Source of the DNA: Lactiplantibacillus plajomi
GTDB taxonomy: Bacteria > Bacillota > Bacilli > Lactobacillales > Lactobacillaceae
Direction: 5' to 3'
Assembly (NCBI RefSeq): GCF_005405405.1
Contig: NZ_BJDZ01000001.1
Coordinates: 1 to 64,000, forward strand
DNA length: 64,000 nt
Shown: positions 15,351 to 50,347 of the stretch, piece after piece
Position numbering within the stretch: position 1 is the first letter of the stretch
Layout: each line of letters opens with the position of its first letter
Program-made: the position numbers and the translations under genes
Notes under the pieces: generated by a model
Told to the model about the DNA's origin: nothing
The model's database searches: none
Seen by the model: the letters and a program-made list of their open reading frames with translations, nothing else

Positions 15351-15503
15351 TCACCTCCGTAAAATTTTAGAGAAATCCACAAAAAGAGCGGGCGCATAAA
15401 ACGCCCGCTCAACCCCGTTAATGGGAATTAATTCATCGTTCATCTGCCCGATGACACTGGTCACCAAGGCGAGAAGCGGGTGCTTCTGCTTTTTTTCTCA
15501 ACT
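15351..15503 (-). ncRNA. L20-type leader (cis-regulatory) of infC-rpmI-rplT
   Basis: A 5' leader of about 150 bases. Near its start the minus strand reads AGCAGAAGCACCCGCTTCTC, followed by segments that can pair with one another. Before infC stands a perfect nine-base-pair terminator (GAGCGGGCG with CGCCCGCTC) and T5 at 15381-15410. In Bacillus, L20 binds such a leader and favours termination. Classification is by position and layout, not by a covariance search. Confidence 0.75.
15381..15410 (-). terminator. Attenuator terminator within the infC leader
   Basis: A nine-pair GC-rich stem with a TTTTATG loop and T5 on the minus strand, ending 22 bases before the infC ribosome binding site. Because it lies inside the leader it is a regulated terminator. 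Confidence 0.85.
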
Positions 15504-45695: not shown

Positions 45696-48209
45696 CTAAG
45701 CCTCGAACCGCTGCCAATAGTCCGCCAAGTAACGACTCGTCAGCCCACGTGGTGCTTGAATCAACGCATGCGGCGTCCCTTGCGCCACGATTTGGCCGCC
45801 ACTCGCACCGCCGCGCGGTCCTAAGTCGAGGATTTCATCCGCGTTGACGATCAAGTTGAGGTCGTGGGTAATCGTGATAATCGTCGCCCCACGGTTTAAT
45901 AATTGCTGCATAACGTTGACCAGCGTTTTAACGTCGAGTGGGTGCAAACCAATCGTTGGTTCGTCAAAGACGAAGAGCGTCGTCGCCTGATTATGGTTGA
46001 GATGCTTAACCAGCTTTAACCGCTGGGCCTCGCCACCGGACAGGCTTGGCGTACTTTCACCTAAATGAAGGTAACTCAAACCAACCTCTTTTAGCAGTTG
46101 CAACTCCCGCTGAATTTTCGGAACCGTTGGGAAAACGGCCAGCGCTTGGTTGATGTCTAGCTTCAAAAGGTCAACGATCGAATAGCCGTGCCACTTAACG
46201 ACCTGTACGGCCTGGTTATACCGCTCGCCGTGGCAAACTGGGCAGACCTGTTGCATGTCGGGTAAAAATTGAATGTCTAAGGTCACAACCCCGGCACCGC
46301 CACAGTTCGGACAGGCGCCCTGTTTATTATTATAAGAAAAATAACTCGAAGTAAAGTGTTTCTCTTTCGCCAGCGGTTGACTGGCATACAGGCGCCGCAG
46401 GTTATCCATAATACTGGTGTAGGTCGACACCGTTGACCGCTGGGTTTTACCGACCGGCGAAGCGTCCACGCTAACGACTTCCTTGATTGGCGACGTCAGC
46501 GCCTTAACTTGCGCGGGGAGCGGTTCGCCCTTGATTTGCCGCCGAATCGCCGGTACTAGACTATCCAAAATCAAGCTAGTCTTACCGGCACCGGAAAAAC
46601 CGGTCACGGCGCTCATCCGGTTGACTGGTAAACTGGTCTTTAAATCCTTCAAGTTAAAATAGTCTGCCACTTCAAAGCTTAACTGGTCGGCGGTCTTTAA
46701 ACTAGCCGGGCGACGGGCCATCAACTGGGCACTGCCGTTCAAGTACGGGCCGATTTTAGATGCCGGGTTCGCCGCAACGTCGGCCGGCGTCCCCTGAGCA
46801 ATCAGCTGGCCGCCTTCCGCACCGGAACCGGGACCGACTTCCAAGATCCAGTCAGCGGCCTGAATAATGTCAACGTTATGGTCGACGACAACTAACGAAT
46901 TTCCCTGATCGACCAAGGCCCGCATAATTTTAAGCAGGCCGCTCACGTTATCCGGGTGCAAACCGATCGACGGCTCGTCCAGTACGTACAGCACACCGGT
47001 CGTCTGGGTCCGCAACGTCCGCGCGAGCTGAATCCGTTGCAACTCACCAGTCGACAAACTGTTCCCGTTGCGCGAAATCGTTAAGTAGTCCAGCCCTAAT
47101 TCCAGCAGTGGCCGTAAGTCGTCTTCAAATTCTTTGAAGAGGCTCCCCGCAACTTTACTCATATTGGCTGGTAAACTCGCGAGTACCCGTTGCTGCCAGT
47201 CGGACAACTCACCCAAGGTTAATTCACTAACCTCGGCAATGTTTAGTCCCCCGGCTCGTTGTACCAGTAATTCTGGCTTTAAGCGCGTACCGTGGCAGAC
47301 CGGGCAAGTCGAAAAGTGGAAGAATTCGGCGATCCGCTTCTGGGCGCGCTCGCTCTTGCTGCTTTTCGCCGATTCCAATACCGCGGCGTGCGCGTTTTCA
47401 TACAACGCGTTAAAATCGTGGAAAACGCGACCGGTGCCAGAAACGAAATCCATCTTATATTTCTTTTGTGGCCCGTTCAGCACAAAGTCCTTTTCCTTAG
47501 CGGTTAAGTCGCGGTACGGCACGTCGATGCGGACACCGGCTTGAGCCGCCACCGACGGCATAAAGTTCCGTCCCGGTAGGTGCCAAGACGCCACCGCCCC
47601 TTCTTCAAGCGTCAGGTGGTCGTCACCGATCAGTTTACTTTCATCCAACTCACGGACTTTCCCGGTTCCTTGACATTCCGGGCAGGCCCCGTCGGCGTTA
47701 AAGGCGAAGTCTTCGGCACTGAAAGCGCCAAATTGTACCCCACAGGTCGGACAGGTCAACTGTCCCATTTGAAAGCCATCGCGAGCCATCGCCTGGGCAA
47801 TTTCCAGACTGGGCTGCAACCGGTGCCCGTTCGGACAAACTGGTGCCCCGAGCCGTGAGAAAATCAATCGAATCACGTTAAACAATTCACTCATGGTCCC
47901 AACGGTCGCCCGTTCAGACGGCACCGCCGGTCGTTGTTTCAACGCCAAGGATGACGGGATGTGCTTCACGCTCGTCACGTCAGCCTGGGCGCCCAACTTA
48001 ATCCGTCGGCGGGTGTAAGTCGATAAGGCCTCCAAGTAACGACGCGAGCCCTCTTCGTACAAGATCCCCATCGCGAGTGAACTCTTTCCCGAACCGGACA
48101 GTCCCGAAATCGCCACGAACTGGTGTAACGGAATGTCAACGTCGATATTTTTCAAGTTATGGACCCGTGCTCCCCGGATCTCAATTTGTGTCGGTAATTT
48201 TGATACCAT
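45696..48209 (-). CDS. UvrA paralogue (UvrA2-type excinuclease subunit/ABC ATPase)
   Basis: An 837-residue UvrA-like protein with two ABC ATPase modules: Walker A GLSGSGKSSLAMG and GFSGAGKTSLILD, signatures LSTGELQRIQLARTL and LSGGEAQRLKLV, and Walker B VLDEPSIGLHP and VFDEPTIGLHP. Zinc-binding CxxC pairs occur (CPTCG, CPECQGTGKV, CPNCGGAG). It is about 100 residues shorter than housekeeping UvrA (about 940) and so is the UvrA2 class, whose members protect against DNA-binding drugs or modulate repair. It has no uvrB nearby. Confidence 0.9.
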   Translation of the reverse strand: MVSKLPTQIEIRGARVHNLKNIDVDIPLHQFVAISGLSGSGKSSLAMGILYEEGSRRYLEALSTYTRRRIKLGAQADVTSVKHIPSSLALKQRPAVPSERATVGTMSELFNVIRLIFSRLGAPVCPNGHRLQPSLEIAQAMARDGFQMGQLTCPTCGVQFGAFSAEDFAFNADGACPECQGTGKVRELDESKLIGDDHLTLEEGAVASWHLPGRNFMPSVAAQAGVRIDVPYRDLTAKEKDFVLNGPQKKYKMDFVSGTGRVFHDFNALYENAHAAVLESAKSSKSERAQKRIAEFFHFSTCPVCHGTRLKPELLVQRAGGLNIAEVSELTLGELSDWQQRVLASLPANMSKVAGSLFKEFEDDLRPLLELGLDYLTISRNGNSLSTGELQRIQLARTLRTQTTGVLYVLDEPSIGLHPDNVSGLLKIMRALVDQGNSLVVVDHNVDIIQAADWILEVGPGSGAEGGQLIAQGTPADVAANPASKIGPYLNGSAQLMARRPASLKTADQLSFEVADYFNLKDLKTSLPVNRMSAVTGFSGAGKTSLILDSLVPAIRRQIKGEPLPAQVKALTSPIKEVVSVDASPVGKTQRSTVSTYTSIMDNLRRLYASQPLAKEKHFTSSYFSYNNKQGACPNCGGAGVVTLDIQFLPDMQQVCPVCHGERYNQAVQVVKWHGYSIVDLLKLDINQALAVFPTVPKIQRELQLLKEVGLSYLHLGESTPSLSGGEAQRLKLVKHLNHNQATTLFVFDEPTIGLHPLDVKTLVNVMQQLLNRGATIITITHDLNLIVNADEILDLGPRGGASGGQIVAQGTPHALIQAPRGLTSRYLADYWQRFEA

Positions 48210-48558: not shown

Positions 48559-49617
48559 TTACGAGTGCCGGTGCCGGCTAGCCTTGACAACCGCCTTCAT
48601 CGCACTTTTACCGCCAAACATCCGTTGTAGCTTGGCCTGTTCACGCTGACGGGCGTCTAAGCCCTGATAACTCAGTTCGCGTTGCAATTTCTGATAACTT
48701 TGCAAACGCTCAGTACTCAGTTGACCAGCCGCCACGGCAGCCAAAACCGCACAGCCGGGTTCGTTAACGTGCCGGCAATCGTTGAACTTGCAACCGCGGG
48801 CTAAACTGGCGATGTCTTCAAAGGTCTTCGCCAAATCACCGGTATACAGTTGTAAGGCCCGCATCCCCGGCGTATCGATGACGACCCCGCCGCTGGGCAC
48901 AACGAGCAGTTGCCGACTGGTGGTCGTGTGACGGCCCTTATCATCATCCGCCCGAATCTCCCGGGTACTGAGTAGCGGTTGCCCAACTAGCGCATTAATC
49001 AGCGTAGATTTACCGACCCCCGACGACCCGACAAAGGCCACCGTTTGTCCCGGCTGAACGTGGTCCGCAATCAGCGCCATCCCGTCCGCGGTTTTAGCCG
49101 AACACACGATGGTTTCGACGCCGACGCTGACTTCCGCTAACGCGGCTAATTTTTGGGACACGTCCTGACAAACGTCGGCCTTGGTTAGAACCAGTACCGG
49201 CGTCGCCCCGCTTTCCCAGGCCATCGTCAGGTAGCGCTCCGCCCGCCGCAAGTTAAAGTCGGCGTTTAGCGACATGCAAATGAAGACGGTGGTTAAATTT
49301 GCCGCAATCAGTTGGGCCTGATTGCCAGCACCGCGCGCAAGGACGCTGACCCGCGGGAGCACCCGTTCAATTTGGGCCTGGTCACTGGCCACGTTGGTCA
49401 GCCAGACCCAGTCACCGACCGTTGGAAAATCAACGCTGGTACTCAGCTGATGGCGCAACTTACCACTGACCGCCGCGGTAACGGTACCGGCTTCGTAGAC
49501 GGCTTGGTATAAGTCGCGGTGCTGCGCCGTAATTCGTGCCAACACCACCCCCGTTAACGTGGGCATTTGGGTGGCAAAGGTGGTCGTTAATCCGTATTGT
49601 TGTAACGTTAAATTCAA
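48559..49617 (-). CDS. rsgA: Ribosome small subunit-dependent GTPase RsgA
   Basis: A 352-residue circularly permuted GTPase that helps finish 30S subunits. The N-terminal OB fold leads into G4 (LVLTKADVC), G1 (GSSGVGKSTLINAL) and G3 (VIDTPGMRAL). The zinc domain has CKFNDCRHVNEPGC. It is longer than the Bacillus form (about 300) and nearer the E. coli type, with a basic C-terminal KASRHRHS. The start is a TTG at 49617 after AAAGGA. It is preceded by a separate leader with terminator and mini-ORF (49663-49865), so its expression is probably attenuated. Confidence 0.93.
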   Translation of the reverse strand: MNLTLQQYGLTTTFATQMPTLTGVVLARITAQHRDLYQAVYEAGTVTAAVSGKLRHQLSTSVDFPTVGDWVWLTNVASDQAQIERVLPRVSVLARGAGNQAQLIAANLTTVFICMSLNADFNLRRAERYLTMAWESGATPVLVLTKADVCQDVSQKLAALAEVSVGVETIVCSAKTADGMALIADHVQPGQTVAFVGSSGVGKSTLINALVGQPLLSTREIRADDDKGRHTTTSRQLLVVPSGGVVIDTPGMRALQLYTGDLAKTFEDIASLARGCKFNDCRHVNEPGCAVLAAVAAGQLSTERLQSYQKLQRELSYQGLDARQREQAKLQRMFGGKSAMKAVVKASRHRHS

Positions 49618-49662
49618 TTTAATAATCCTTTCGCAAGTGCGGCTTTTCCGCTAACTCACGAC

Positions 49663-49687
49663 AAAAAAGGCGTCGTTAAACGACGCC
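49663..49687 (-). terminator. Intrinsic terminator in the rsgA leader
   Basis: GGCGTCG and CGACGCC pair around a TTTAA loop and are followed by T6 on the minus strand. It ends about 45 bases before the rsgA start codon, so it must be bypassed for rsgA to be transcribed. A second hairpin (CCCACCGAATCGGTGGG, 49687-49703) abuts it. Confidence 0.88.
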
Positions 49688-49788
49688 CCACCGAATCGGT
49701 GGGTGTCGGAGGTGGTCTATTAACCAGGATGGAAATTGCGCGCACTTAAACAAGCAGCCCTAAGTCTGCTAAGTGGCATACAACCAAA

Positions 49789-49806
49789 CTAGTTATTGAC
49801 CGACAT
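49789..49806 (-). CDS. Five-codon upstream ORF (MSVNN) in the rsgA leader
   Basis: ATG at 49806 is followed by TCG GTC AAT AAC TAG. A strong AAGGAGG (49815-49821) sits eight bases upstream, better than the site of rsgA itself. The ribosome binding site and start codon lie within or next to the outer stem arm, so translation would disturb the leader fold. Such mini-ORFs are typical of ribosome-mediated attenuators. Translation has not been shown; interpretation is inferred. Confidence 0.5.
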   Translation of the reverse strand: MSVNN

Positions 49807-49836
49807 CCGACAACCCTCCTTCAATATAGTGGCATA

Positions 49837-49865
49837 AGCATAGCACACCCACCGATACTTAGCAA
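49837..49865 (-). promoter_or_regulatory. Promoter of the rsgA leader
   Basis: TTGCTA (49860-49865) and TATGCT (49837-49842) lie 17 bases apart on the minus strand, immediately after the vanZ stop codon. Predicted start is near 49830. Confidence 0.7.
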
Positions 49866-49867
49866 CA

Positions 49868-50347
49868 CTACGTCTGTTTCAACGGTTGCCTCAACCGGGC
49901 CAGCCCGTATGTCAAAATCGCACCAATCAAAATTCCAGTCGCGTTAGCCAGCACGTCGTTAATATCACTACTGCGATTGATCAGACAATTTTGCGGCAGA
50001 CCGTATTGAACGGCTTCAACCCCGCCACCGATCAACCCGCCGACCACCGTCATTAACGGGAGTGACCGGGGTAGCCAACGACCGATCAGCCACCCCAACG
50101 GTACCGTTAAGCCAATGTTTTCAACGAATCCTAAGCTGGTGACGTTTAAGTGGGTCAAGTTGACCTGACCAACGCCGGCCGGCATCACGTAAAGGGCAGA
50201 ACCATCAAAAGAAATTGGGGTAAACACAATCATGCTCAAACCGACGAAGTAGCCTAACCATAATAAACGGCCCCACCGATGCGATCGTTGCACCACACCG
50301 TAACTAAGCGCCACCAAAATAATGATGAGAACTGGTAACCAGCGCAT
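49868..50347 (-). CDS. VanZ family membrane protein
   Basis: A 159-residue membrane protein with four to five helices (for example MRWLPVLIIILVALSYGVV at the N terminus). The C-terminal RSSDINDVLANATGILIGA is the VanZ/TeaZ signature. VanZ of enterococci gives low-level teicoplanin resistance; most chromosomal relatives have no known role. It lies alone upstream of the rsgA leader promoter. Confidence 0.82.
   Translation of the reverse strand: MRWLPVLIIILVALSYGVVQRSHRWGRLLWLGYFVGLSMIVFTPISFDGSALYVMPAGVGQVNLTHLNVTSLGFVENIGLTVPLGWLIGRWLPRSLPLMTVVGGLIGGGVEAVQYGLPQNCLINRSSDINDVLANATGILIGAILTYGLARLRQPLKQT

Follow-up and report, generated by a model that had tools for sequence, protein, structure and literature searches.

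A conserved leader with a very short upstream ORF precedes the second rsgA gene of Lactiplantibacillus: a putative ribosome-sensing attenuator with Ile-Val counterparts in other Bacilli and Clostridia

Translation attenuators of the ermC/ermA type combine a leader peptide with alternating RNA arms that hide or free a Shine-Dalgarno (SD) sequence. In the vmlR leader of Bacillus subtilis, stalling on a three-codon upstream ORF (uORF; MIN) prevents an anti-antiterminator from forming, and induction has been tested by experiment (PMC9226507). In the cplR leader of Clostridioides difficile, a 5' hairpin sequesters a three-codon uORF (MR[I/M]), control comes from the terminator jointly with SD occlusion, and drug induction was tested there too (PMC10201436). 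In Escherichia coli, the toiL uORF upstream of topAI reports translation stress by refolding a ribosome-binding site (RBS), and termination is Rho-dependent (PMC12121999).

The leader described here, upstream of an RsgA paralogue gene (rsgA2) of Lactiplantibacillus plajomi, is not a member of the ARE-ABCF leaders (vmlR, cplR, lsaA), although it appears to work alike; its downstream gene encodes an RsgA-family GTPase. Our leader shares with vmlR a very short uORF, a first structure over that uORF, a terminator and further control at the RBS, and our model is patterned on vmlR, where the uORF structure acts as an anti-antiterminator. Unlike vmlR, whose target is an ABCF resistance ATPase, it has an ORF of four to five codons, its SD and ORF both pair with one downstream arm (arm3), and an antiterminator finds no support. 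From cplR, our leader differs in peptide, target and helices. The likeness to toiL lies in a uORF ahead of a gene outside antibiotic resistance; the unrelated gene and the Rho-dependent termination set toiL apart.

The window, that is, the whole stretch of 64,000 nucleotides analysed (L. plajomi contig NZ_BJDZ01000001.1), carries the leader on its minus strand, where a VanZ-like gene (end at 49868) is followed by promoter, SD, mini-ORF, hairpin, a long 3' arm, terminator and rsgA2. The putative promoter (49837..49865) reads TTGCTA (49865-49860), a 17-nt spacer and TATGCT (49842-49837) with the extended -10 TGCTATGCT; it lies below the threshold of a simple scan and aligns with the boxes of the genus. 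An SD, AAGGAGG (49815..49821), which has an SD-like stretch at the same place in the genus loci and is weaker in loci L020 and L022-L024, precedes a predicted uORF of five codons, MSVNN (ATG TCG GTC AAT AAC TAG, 49806-49789), recognized from the sequence and its conservation in the genus. SD and uORF together make up the 5' arm (49788..49823) of the predicted helix A, at -34.3 kcal/mol and z -4.1 in the window, and arm3 (49691..49728), directly 5' of the terminator, makes up its 3' arm; within them, GGGTTGTCGGA (49816-49806) is complementary to TCCGACACCC (49710-49701) over 10 pairs with one bulge. Between the arms lie hairpin H2 (AGCAG/CTGCT, 49753..49770) and a motif segment (49732..49745), GTGCGCGCAATTTC in the window and GTGTACCC in most relatives, which is the 5' arm of helix B; its 3' arm (49636..49650) falls in the interval between the terminator and the rsgA2 RBS, with -12.1 kcal/mol in the window. 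The intrinsic terminator (49663..49689), found by the scan and supported by covariation, has the stem GGGGCGTCG...CGACGCC at 49689-49669 and T6 at 49668-49663, and 45 bases separate T6 from the TTG start of rsgA2 (49617), whose SD, AAAGGA (49626..49631), is GAAAGGA-like in most relatives of the genus. Perfect 12-base inverted copies on the minus strand, ATCGGTGGGTGT in the promoter spacer (49856-49845) and ACACCCACCGAT before the terminator (49706-49695), were also seen; if transcription of the VanZ-like gene reads through, ATCGGTGGGTGT in that RNA would compete for arm3.

Folded as a whole, the 174-nt leader reaches -71 kcal/mol, far below the -46.8 kcal/mol of shuffled versions (z -5.9; 0/200 shuffles as good). 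The simple scans of the single sequence gave counts not above chance, with 0 promoters found against 0.7 expected and 1 terminator against 1.6; despite this, promoter and terminator are made more credible by conservation in 18 relatives and by covariation, respectively. The promoter, SD, MSVNN frame, outer arms, inner hairpin and GC stem with T6 proposed in the first-pass annotation were all recovered in place.

The downstream gene (48559..49617, minus strand; 352 aa) encodes a protein of the RsgA family, with 154.1 bits to TIGR00157 (cut-off 100) and 173.8 bits to PF03193 (cut-off 30). Housekeeping rsgA typically lies in a pknB-rsgA-rpe cluster. A second RsgA-like gene in the same genome (G000:C9), an open frame of 302 codons that is 31% identical to the window gene, is flanked by a frame with a PASTA domain and by one for an epimerase, taken as pknB and rpe by reading of the frames. 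Because that copy holds the pknB/rpe setting, the gene in the window is the paralogue rsgA2 and not housekeeping rsgA; the name rsgA given to it in the first-pass annotation is corrected accordingly. The paralogue was found in 19 of 21 genomes of the genus, in 96/397 of the family, in 62/345 of the order draw and in 134/299 of the class draw, these last three counts, from overlapping draws, being taken at E 1e-45. No conserved neighbour gene was seen within 3-kb flanks, where the largest clusters other than rsgA2 covered 7, 4 and 4 loci. In the window, the gene is followed on the same strand by one for a UvrA-like protein of 837 aa (45696-48209; 753.4 bits to TIGR00630, cut-off 729.8), shorter than the 924-position model, and an L20 ribosomal protein leader (RF00558, 85.2 bits) lies at 15374-15497 on the minus strand.

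Start codons of rsgA2, assigned by SD and frame alone, were TTG 35, ATG 16, GTG 6, ATT 4, CTG 2 and ATC 2 in 65 loci, and frequent non-AUG starts include, besides the window (49617), L065, L073, L076, L087, L086, L066 and L079. An ATT-type start is known from infC, and by this analogy the ATT and ATC starts may make rsgA2 sensitive to initiation fidelity. The counterpart in L. plantarum WCFS1 is probably lp_1687, judging by genus and name, a gene named rsgA2 whose expression was modulated in a hydroxytyrosol transcriptome (PMC7278804); this passing mention was the only one of bacterial rsgA2 or lp_1687 found in the literature searched, most subscription papers lying outside the search.

The leader is conserved together with its gene. 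In the 330 nt before rsgA2, all 19 genus loci align with promoter, SD, ATG, a stop after four to five codons, terminator and RBS, and where the window reads TTGCTA the 18 relatives have TTGAC(A/T) with a -10-like box. The stretch TTTnGTGTACCC is present in most leaders of the genus; the window is the outlier, being without GTGTACCC and carrying GTGCGCGC at the same place. Next to MSVNN in the window, the genus peptides include MSVIR, MSAVQ, MSVSR, MSARN, MLFIG and MSVVY, such that codon 5 varies freely in the genus loci with the length of the uORF kept, and codon 4, Asn in the window, is Ile or Val in many relatives. Leaders of the same type, here type T, occur in genus codes g4, g13, g14 and g16, with peptides MSDIQ, MLFI, MSAIV, MAVID and MSVVQ. 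Because type-T uORFs were picked by a rule of four to five codons, the constancy of their length across the type-T set is partly circular; the genus alignment is the unfiltered check. The stop was TAA in 21 and TAG in 12 of 33 type-T leaders, and, counted from the first base of this codon, their terminators begin at a distance of 94-118 nt.

A pattern search of 397 family genomes, with a pattern built from known leaders that left the window itself unmatched, gave 32 matches, of which 23 lie upstream of rsgA2 (positions compared by eye) and carry an early stop; neither applies to the other 9. The DNA similarity search across the genus returned, besides the window's own copy, short matches only; these lay 5' of rsgA2 in three genomes (G008, G009, G017), and a protein-anchored search was therefore used. 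A search of a plasmid collection gave no match. At Rfam gathering scores, none was found in the leader and there were 0 matches in 20 loci holding rsgA2 upstream regions; relaxed scores gave five sub-threshold matches, none inside a leader. Based on this comparison, we regard the region as a conserved cis-acting leader of rsgA2.

We then compared cognate and swapped helix partners among the type-T leaders. Thirty-five entered, two terminators being set by hand (L038, L039) and three leaders not entered (L040, L046, L052), and 33 were used after L041 and L051 were dropped. For helix A, the SD plus uORF with the pre-terminator stretch, cognate partners gave -31.6 and swapped ones -24.2 kcal/mol (mean z -3.3), with weak values in L053-L055 (z -0.3 to -1.4). 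In an all-pairs permutation scan of eight segments in 27 combinations over 28 non-redundant leaders, ORF:arm3, SD:arm3 and motif:RBS each reached p 0.0005, the floor of the test; the next combinations, post:motif (0.022), ORF:motif (0.035) and arm3:T5 (0.037), are near chance level for 27 tests. The third of the strong pairs is helix B, in which the motif GUGUACCC pairs with the ribosome-binding region of rsgA2. Its partners co-vary, being GUACCCAC/GUGGGUAC in L047 and GUGCG/CGCAC in the window, which keeps both helices despite its divergent sequence. Helix B is weak in L012, L014, L019 and L021 (-2.8 to -6.1 kcal/mol), and it also came out weak in a coarser test of the middle segment against the RBS region (mean z -1.4, the cognate rarely best). 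As helices A and B cross, they would form a pseudoknot or exclude one another.

In the terminator helix, both partners have changed at 5/5 pairs and 95.6% of cells are paired, with 0/500 shuffles as high. Hairpin H2 keeps its position with a changing stem sequence (mean z -2.0 in 33 leaders) and in the window is no better than shuffles (z +0.5). A consensus fold on the sequence-only alignment yielded the terminator alone, since the arms of the other helices were misaligned, and was replaced by the cognate/swapped tests. All permutations and shuffles for helices and uORFs ignore the relatedness of the leaders. The first-pass annotation had made its reading depend on conservation of the ORF and stems in relatives, and this was borne out by the ORF in all 19 genus loci, the SD:arm3 and ORF:arm3 pairings at p 0.0005 and the covarying terminator.

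Does occupancy of the uORF alter the terminator? In transcripts ending at the terminator, its predicted probability was 0.90-1.00 unmasked and fell on masking of the uORF to 0.23 (L013), 0.12 (L043) and 0.20 (L044), among the leaders listed; in the window the drop was small, from 0.90 to 0.81, as in some other leaders. When the transcript was cut off midway through the terminator, upstream pairing of the 5' half stood at 0.68 masked against 0.37 free, rising in 26 of 29 non-redundant leaders, and stayed unchanged in the window (0.64 free, 0.66 masked). Terminator halves of other species paired equally well, at 0.65 against 0.68 for the cognate, which was higher in 19/29 (p 0.14). A dedicated antiterminator, sought in these 29 leaders through the pairing of the terminator half, was not supported. 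In the window, a short hairpin, CCCACCG-ATT-CGGTGGG (49703-49687), can be read in the sequence, and a candidate antiterminator, CGAC-CCCACCG...CGGTGGG-GTCG (49681..49708), which is without covariation support, would take the 5' arm of the terminator. The candidate is predicted at -17.1 and the terminator at -14.7 kcal/mol; since the short hairpin plus a shortened terminator is more stable (-22.9 kcal/mol), antitermination is possible in such models, kinetically at most.

Comparison across genomes supports the ORF, helix A, helix B, the terminator, the link to rsgA2 and the Ile-Val uORFs described below. What we infer is that ribosome occupancy is the switch, which state is on and which off, that antitermination takes place and what kind of inducer acts. 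We propose that the leader is probably a cis-acting, uORF-dependent and ribosome-sensing attenuator, in which holding a ribosome on the uORF would turn rsgA2 on. To judge from the promoter, transcription would start directly upstream of the uORF SD, and a ribosome would load once this SD emerges from the polymerase. When the five codons are finished and the ribosome is gone, SD and uORF would pair with arm3 in helix A, the terminator would fold and transcription would end at about 49663, the off state. A ribosome held on the uORF, by a ribosome-targeting drug or other translation block, would prevent helix A; arm3 may then take the 5' half of the terminator and the polymerase would read through, the on state, in whose RNA helix B would tune translation of rsgA2. 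The attenuator reading of the first-pass annotation gains a conserved ORF, the pairing of ORF and SD with arm3 and a covarying terminator, and its gene turns out to be a paralogue, which changes the biology.

In other genera, rsgA2 is often preceded by a longer SD-led uORF that contains Ile-Val (IV), for example MLGIVMGVVTSLEDYKA, MFNMTVTQMDIVMRREALAK, MIKMAIVIFREEYTD and MIRNQRAEIVTIGEVCAK, as well as MYSKQKLEIVTNGEVCAQ in Peribacillus cavernae, MRVNKEIVRHGEALALV in Lactococcus formosensis and MMNKRNVQIDIVLNGEVATN in Clostridium sp. K13. The survey covered 77 of the 80 family places outside the genus (the broken or partial G040, G209 and G229 left out) and, chosen by hand outside the family, 20/47 order-level and 20/133 class-level genomes. 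When SD-led ATG ORFs of 4-30 codons within 330 nt upstream were scanned, 40/117 loci had an IV uORF, where dinucleotide shuffles predict 0.6 and the reverse strand gave 0; by genus codes, the count was 20/46 with 0.3 predicted. Any SD-led short ORF was present in 78/117 loci (14.1 expected), and the scan found none in the other 39/117. Among titled loci, 12/78 had an IV uORF compared with 3/407 other genes of the same stretches (Fisher p 4e-8), these control regions often lying inside neighbouring genes and therefore having a lower uORF rate. Val is encoded by all four codons (GTA, GTG, GTT, GTC) and Ile by ATT in 47/50; the motif itself served to select the uORFs, and this partly fixes all residue counts except the Val codon spread. 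As Ile is nearly always ATT, we do not claim pure peptide selection, and conservation at this site may partly concern RNA (an ATTGTA-type motif) rather than peptide.

Of 42 distinct peptides with an SD-like arm, this arm begins 9-12 nt past the start of the Val codon in 20 and 22-23 nt past it in 11; 32 further distinct peptides are without such an arm by the pattern used. Statistics were taken on 65/100 non-type-T loci; the rest lacked an SD start or a motif uORF, or their segment was too short. Over 50 IV loci from 25 genus codes, mean z was -2.2 for arm 1:arm 2 and -2.3 for arm 2:rsgA2 SD, and the two helices overlap in arm 2 in 40/50, which is partly expected because both were sought in one short segment. 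These arms have, in the folding models, the layout of a translation attenuator and could hide the rsgA2 SD. The IV leaders are like ermC/ermA in the leader peptide and the arms alternating over an SD; unlike them, they are without the IFVI or IAVV motif and have no methyltransferase target. Outside these types, L131 (genus code f7g56) has a 28-codon ORF ending FFTPSK before rsgA2 and L125 a similar frame, each with a terminator-like hairpin by eye, possibly a third leader architecture; in L187 and L244, a Synergistaceae MAG and the cyanobacterium Trichocoleus, IV- or IA-like uORFs before rsgA2 may be due to chance.

The same logic would operate in these genera at the level of translation, the order being IV uORF, arm 1, arm 2 and rsgA2 SD, where arm 2 paired with arm 1 would mean on and arm 2 paired with the rsgA2 SD off. 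Going by the size of the ribosome footprint, arm 1 would stay mostly exposed (on) when the ribosome halts at Ile-Val and would be covered (off) when it reaches the stop.

An unlikely alternative, though the most probable of three, is that the uORF senses translation capacity and needs no specific stall or drug: the frequency of initiation on it would be reported, such that rsgA2 tracks the supply of working 30S subunits in a homeostatic loop. An RsgA-family GTPase as product would suit such a loop, as would the non-AUG starts, as assigned, of rsgA2 in 39/50 IV loci; in 37/50, arm 1:arm 2 is stronger than arm 2:SD, so rsgA2 would stay on in these loci when the uORF is not translated. In the window type, however, an empty uORF would predict off, and capacity sensing has no need for a conserved IV motif. 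A held ribosome predicts on in both types and makes use of the motif, and we therefore favour the sensing of a stall. Much less probable is a leader bound by a protein or ligand, as an RNA thermometer, a riboswitch or a binding site at GUGUACCC; conservation of the SD would then yield the short ORF as a by-product. Few stretches outside the ORF are indeed as well conserved as TTTnGTGTACCC, but the motif and its RBS partner change together as in a helix, the length of the ORF is kept in the genus over a varying codon 5, and the Rfam search at gathering scores was empty. The least probable reading, offered as an alternative in the first-pass annotation, is an independent small RNA of about 170 nt acting in trans with incidental readthrough into rsgA2, for which the leader has its own promoter, its own terminator and a very stable fold; the ORF is conserved, however, all early-stop pattern matches (23 of the 32) are at rsgA2, and helix B ties the leader, with the cognate partner preferred, to sequence past the terminator near the RBS, which disfavours an unrelated small RNA.

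Ribosome-mediated attenuation on a stalled uORF is a known kind of control; its target, peptide motif and leader:RBS helix are new here as far as searched, no description of an rsgA leader or rsgA attenuation having been found among the titles and abstracts listed from a literature in which most subscription papers are missing. Tentatively, and with rather more doubt than for the attenuator itself, we suggest that RsgA2 may be an inducible ribosome-stress GTPase of Firmicutes, controlled by a new and ancient family of leader peptides (approximately [DE]-I-V, then an SD-like arm) that would stall the ribosome on translation inhibitors, and that lactobacilli may have shortened this to an ORF of four to five codons with an intrinsic terminator and a crossing leader:RBS helix. 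If true, cells would make a ribosome-assembly factor in direct response to the state of the translating ribosome, the common second RsgA would gain a function, and the short list of leader-peptide signals would gain a peptide motif, Ile-Val.
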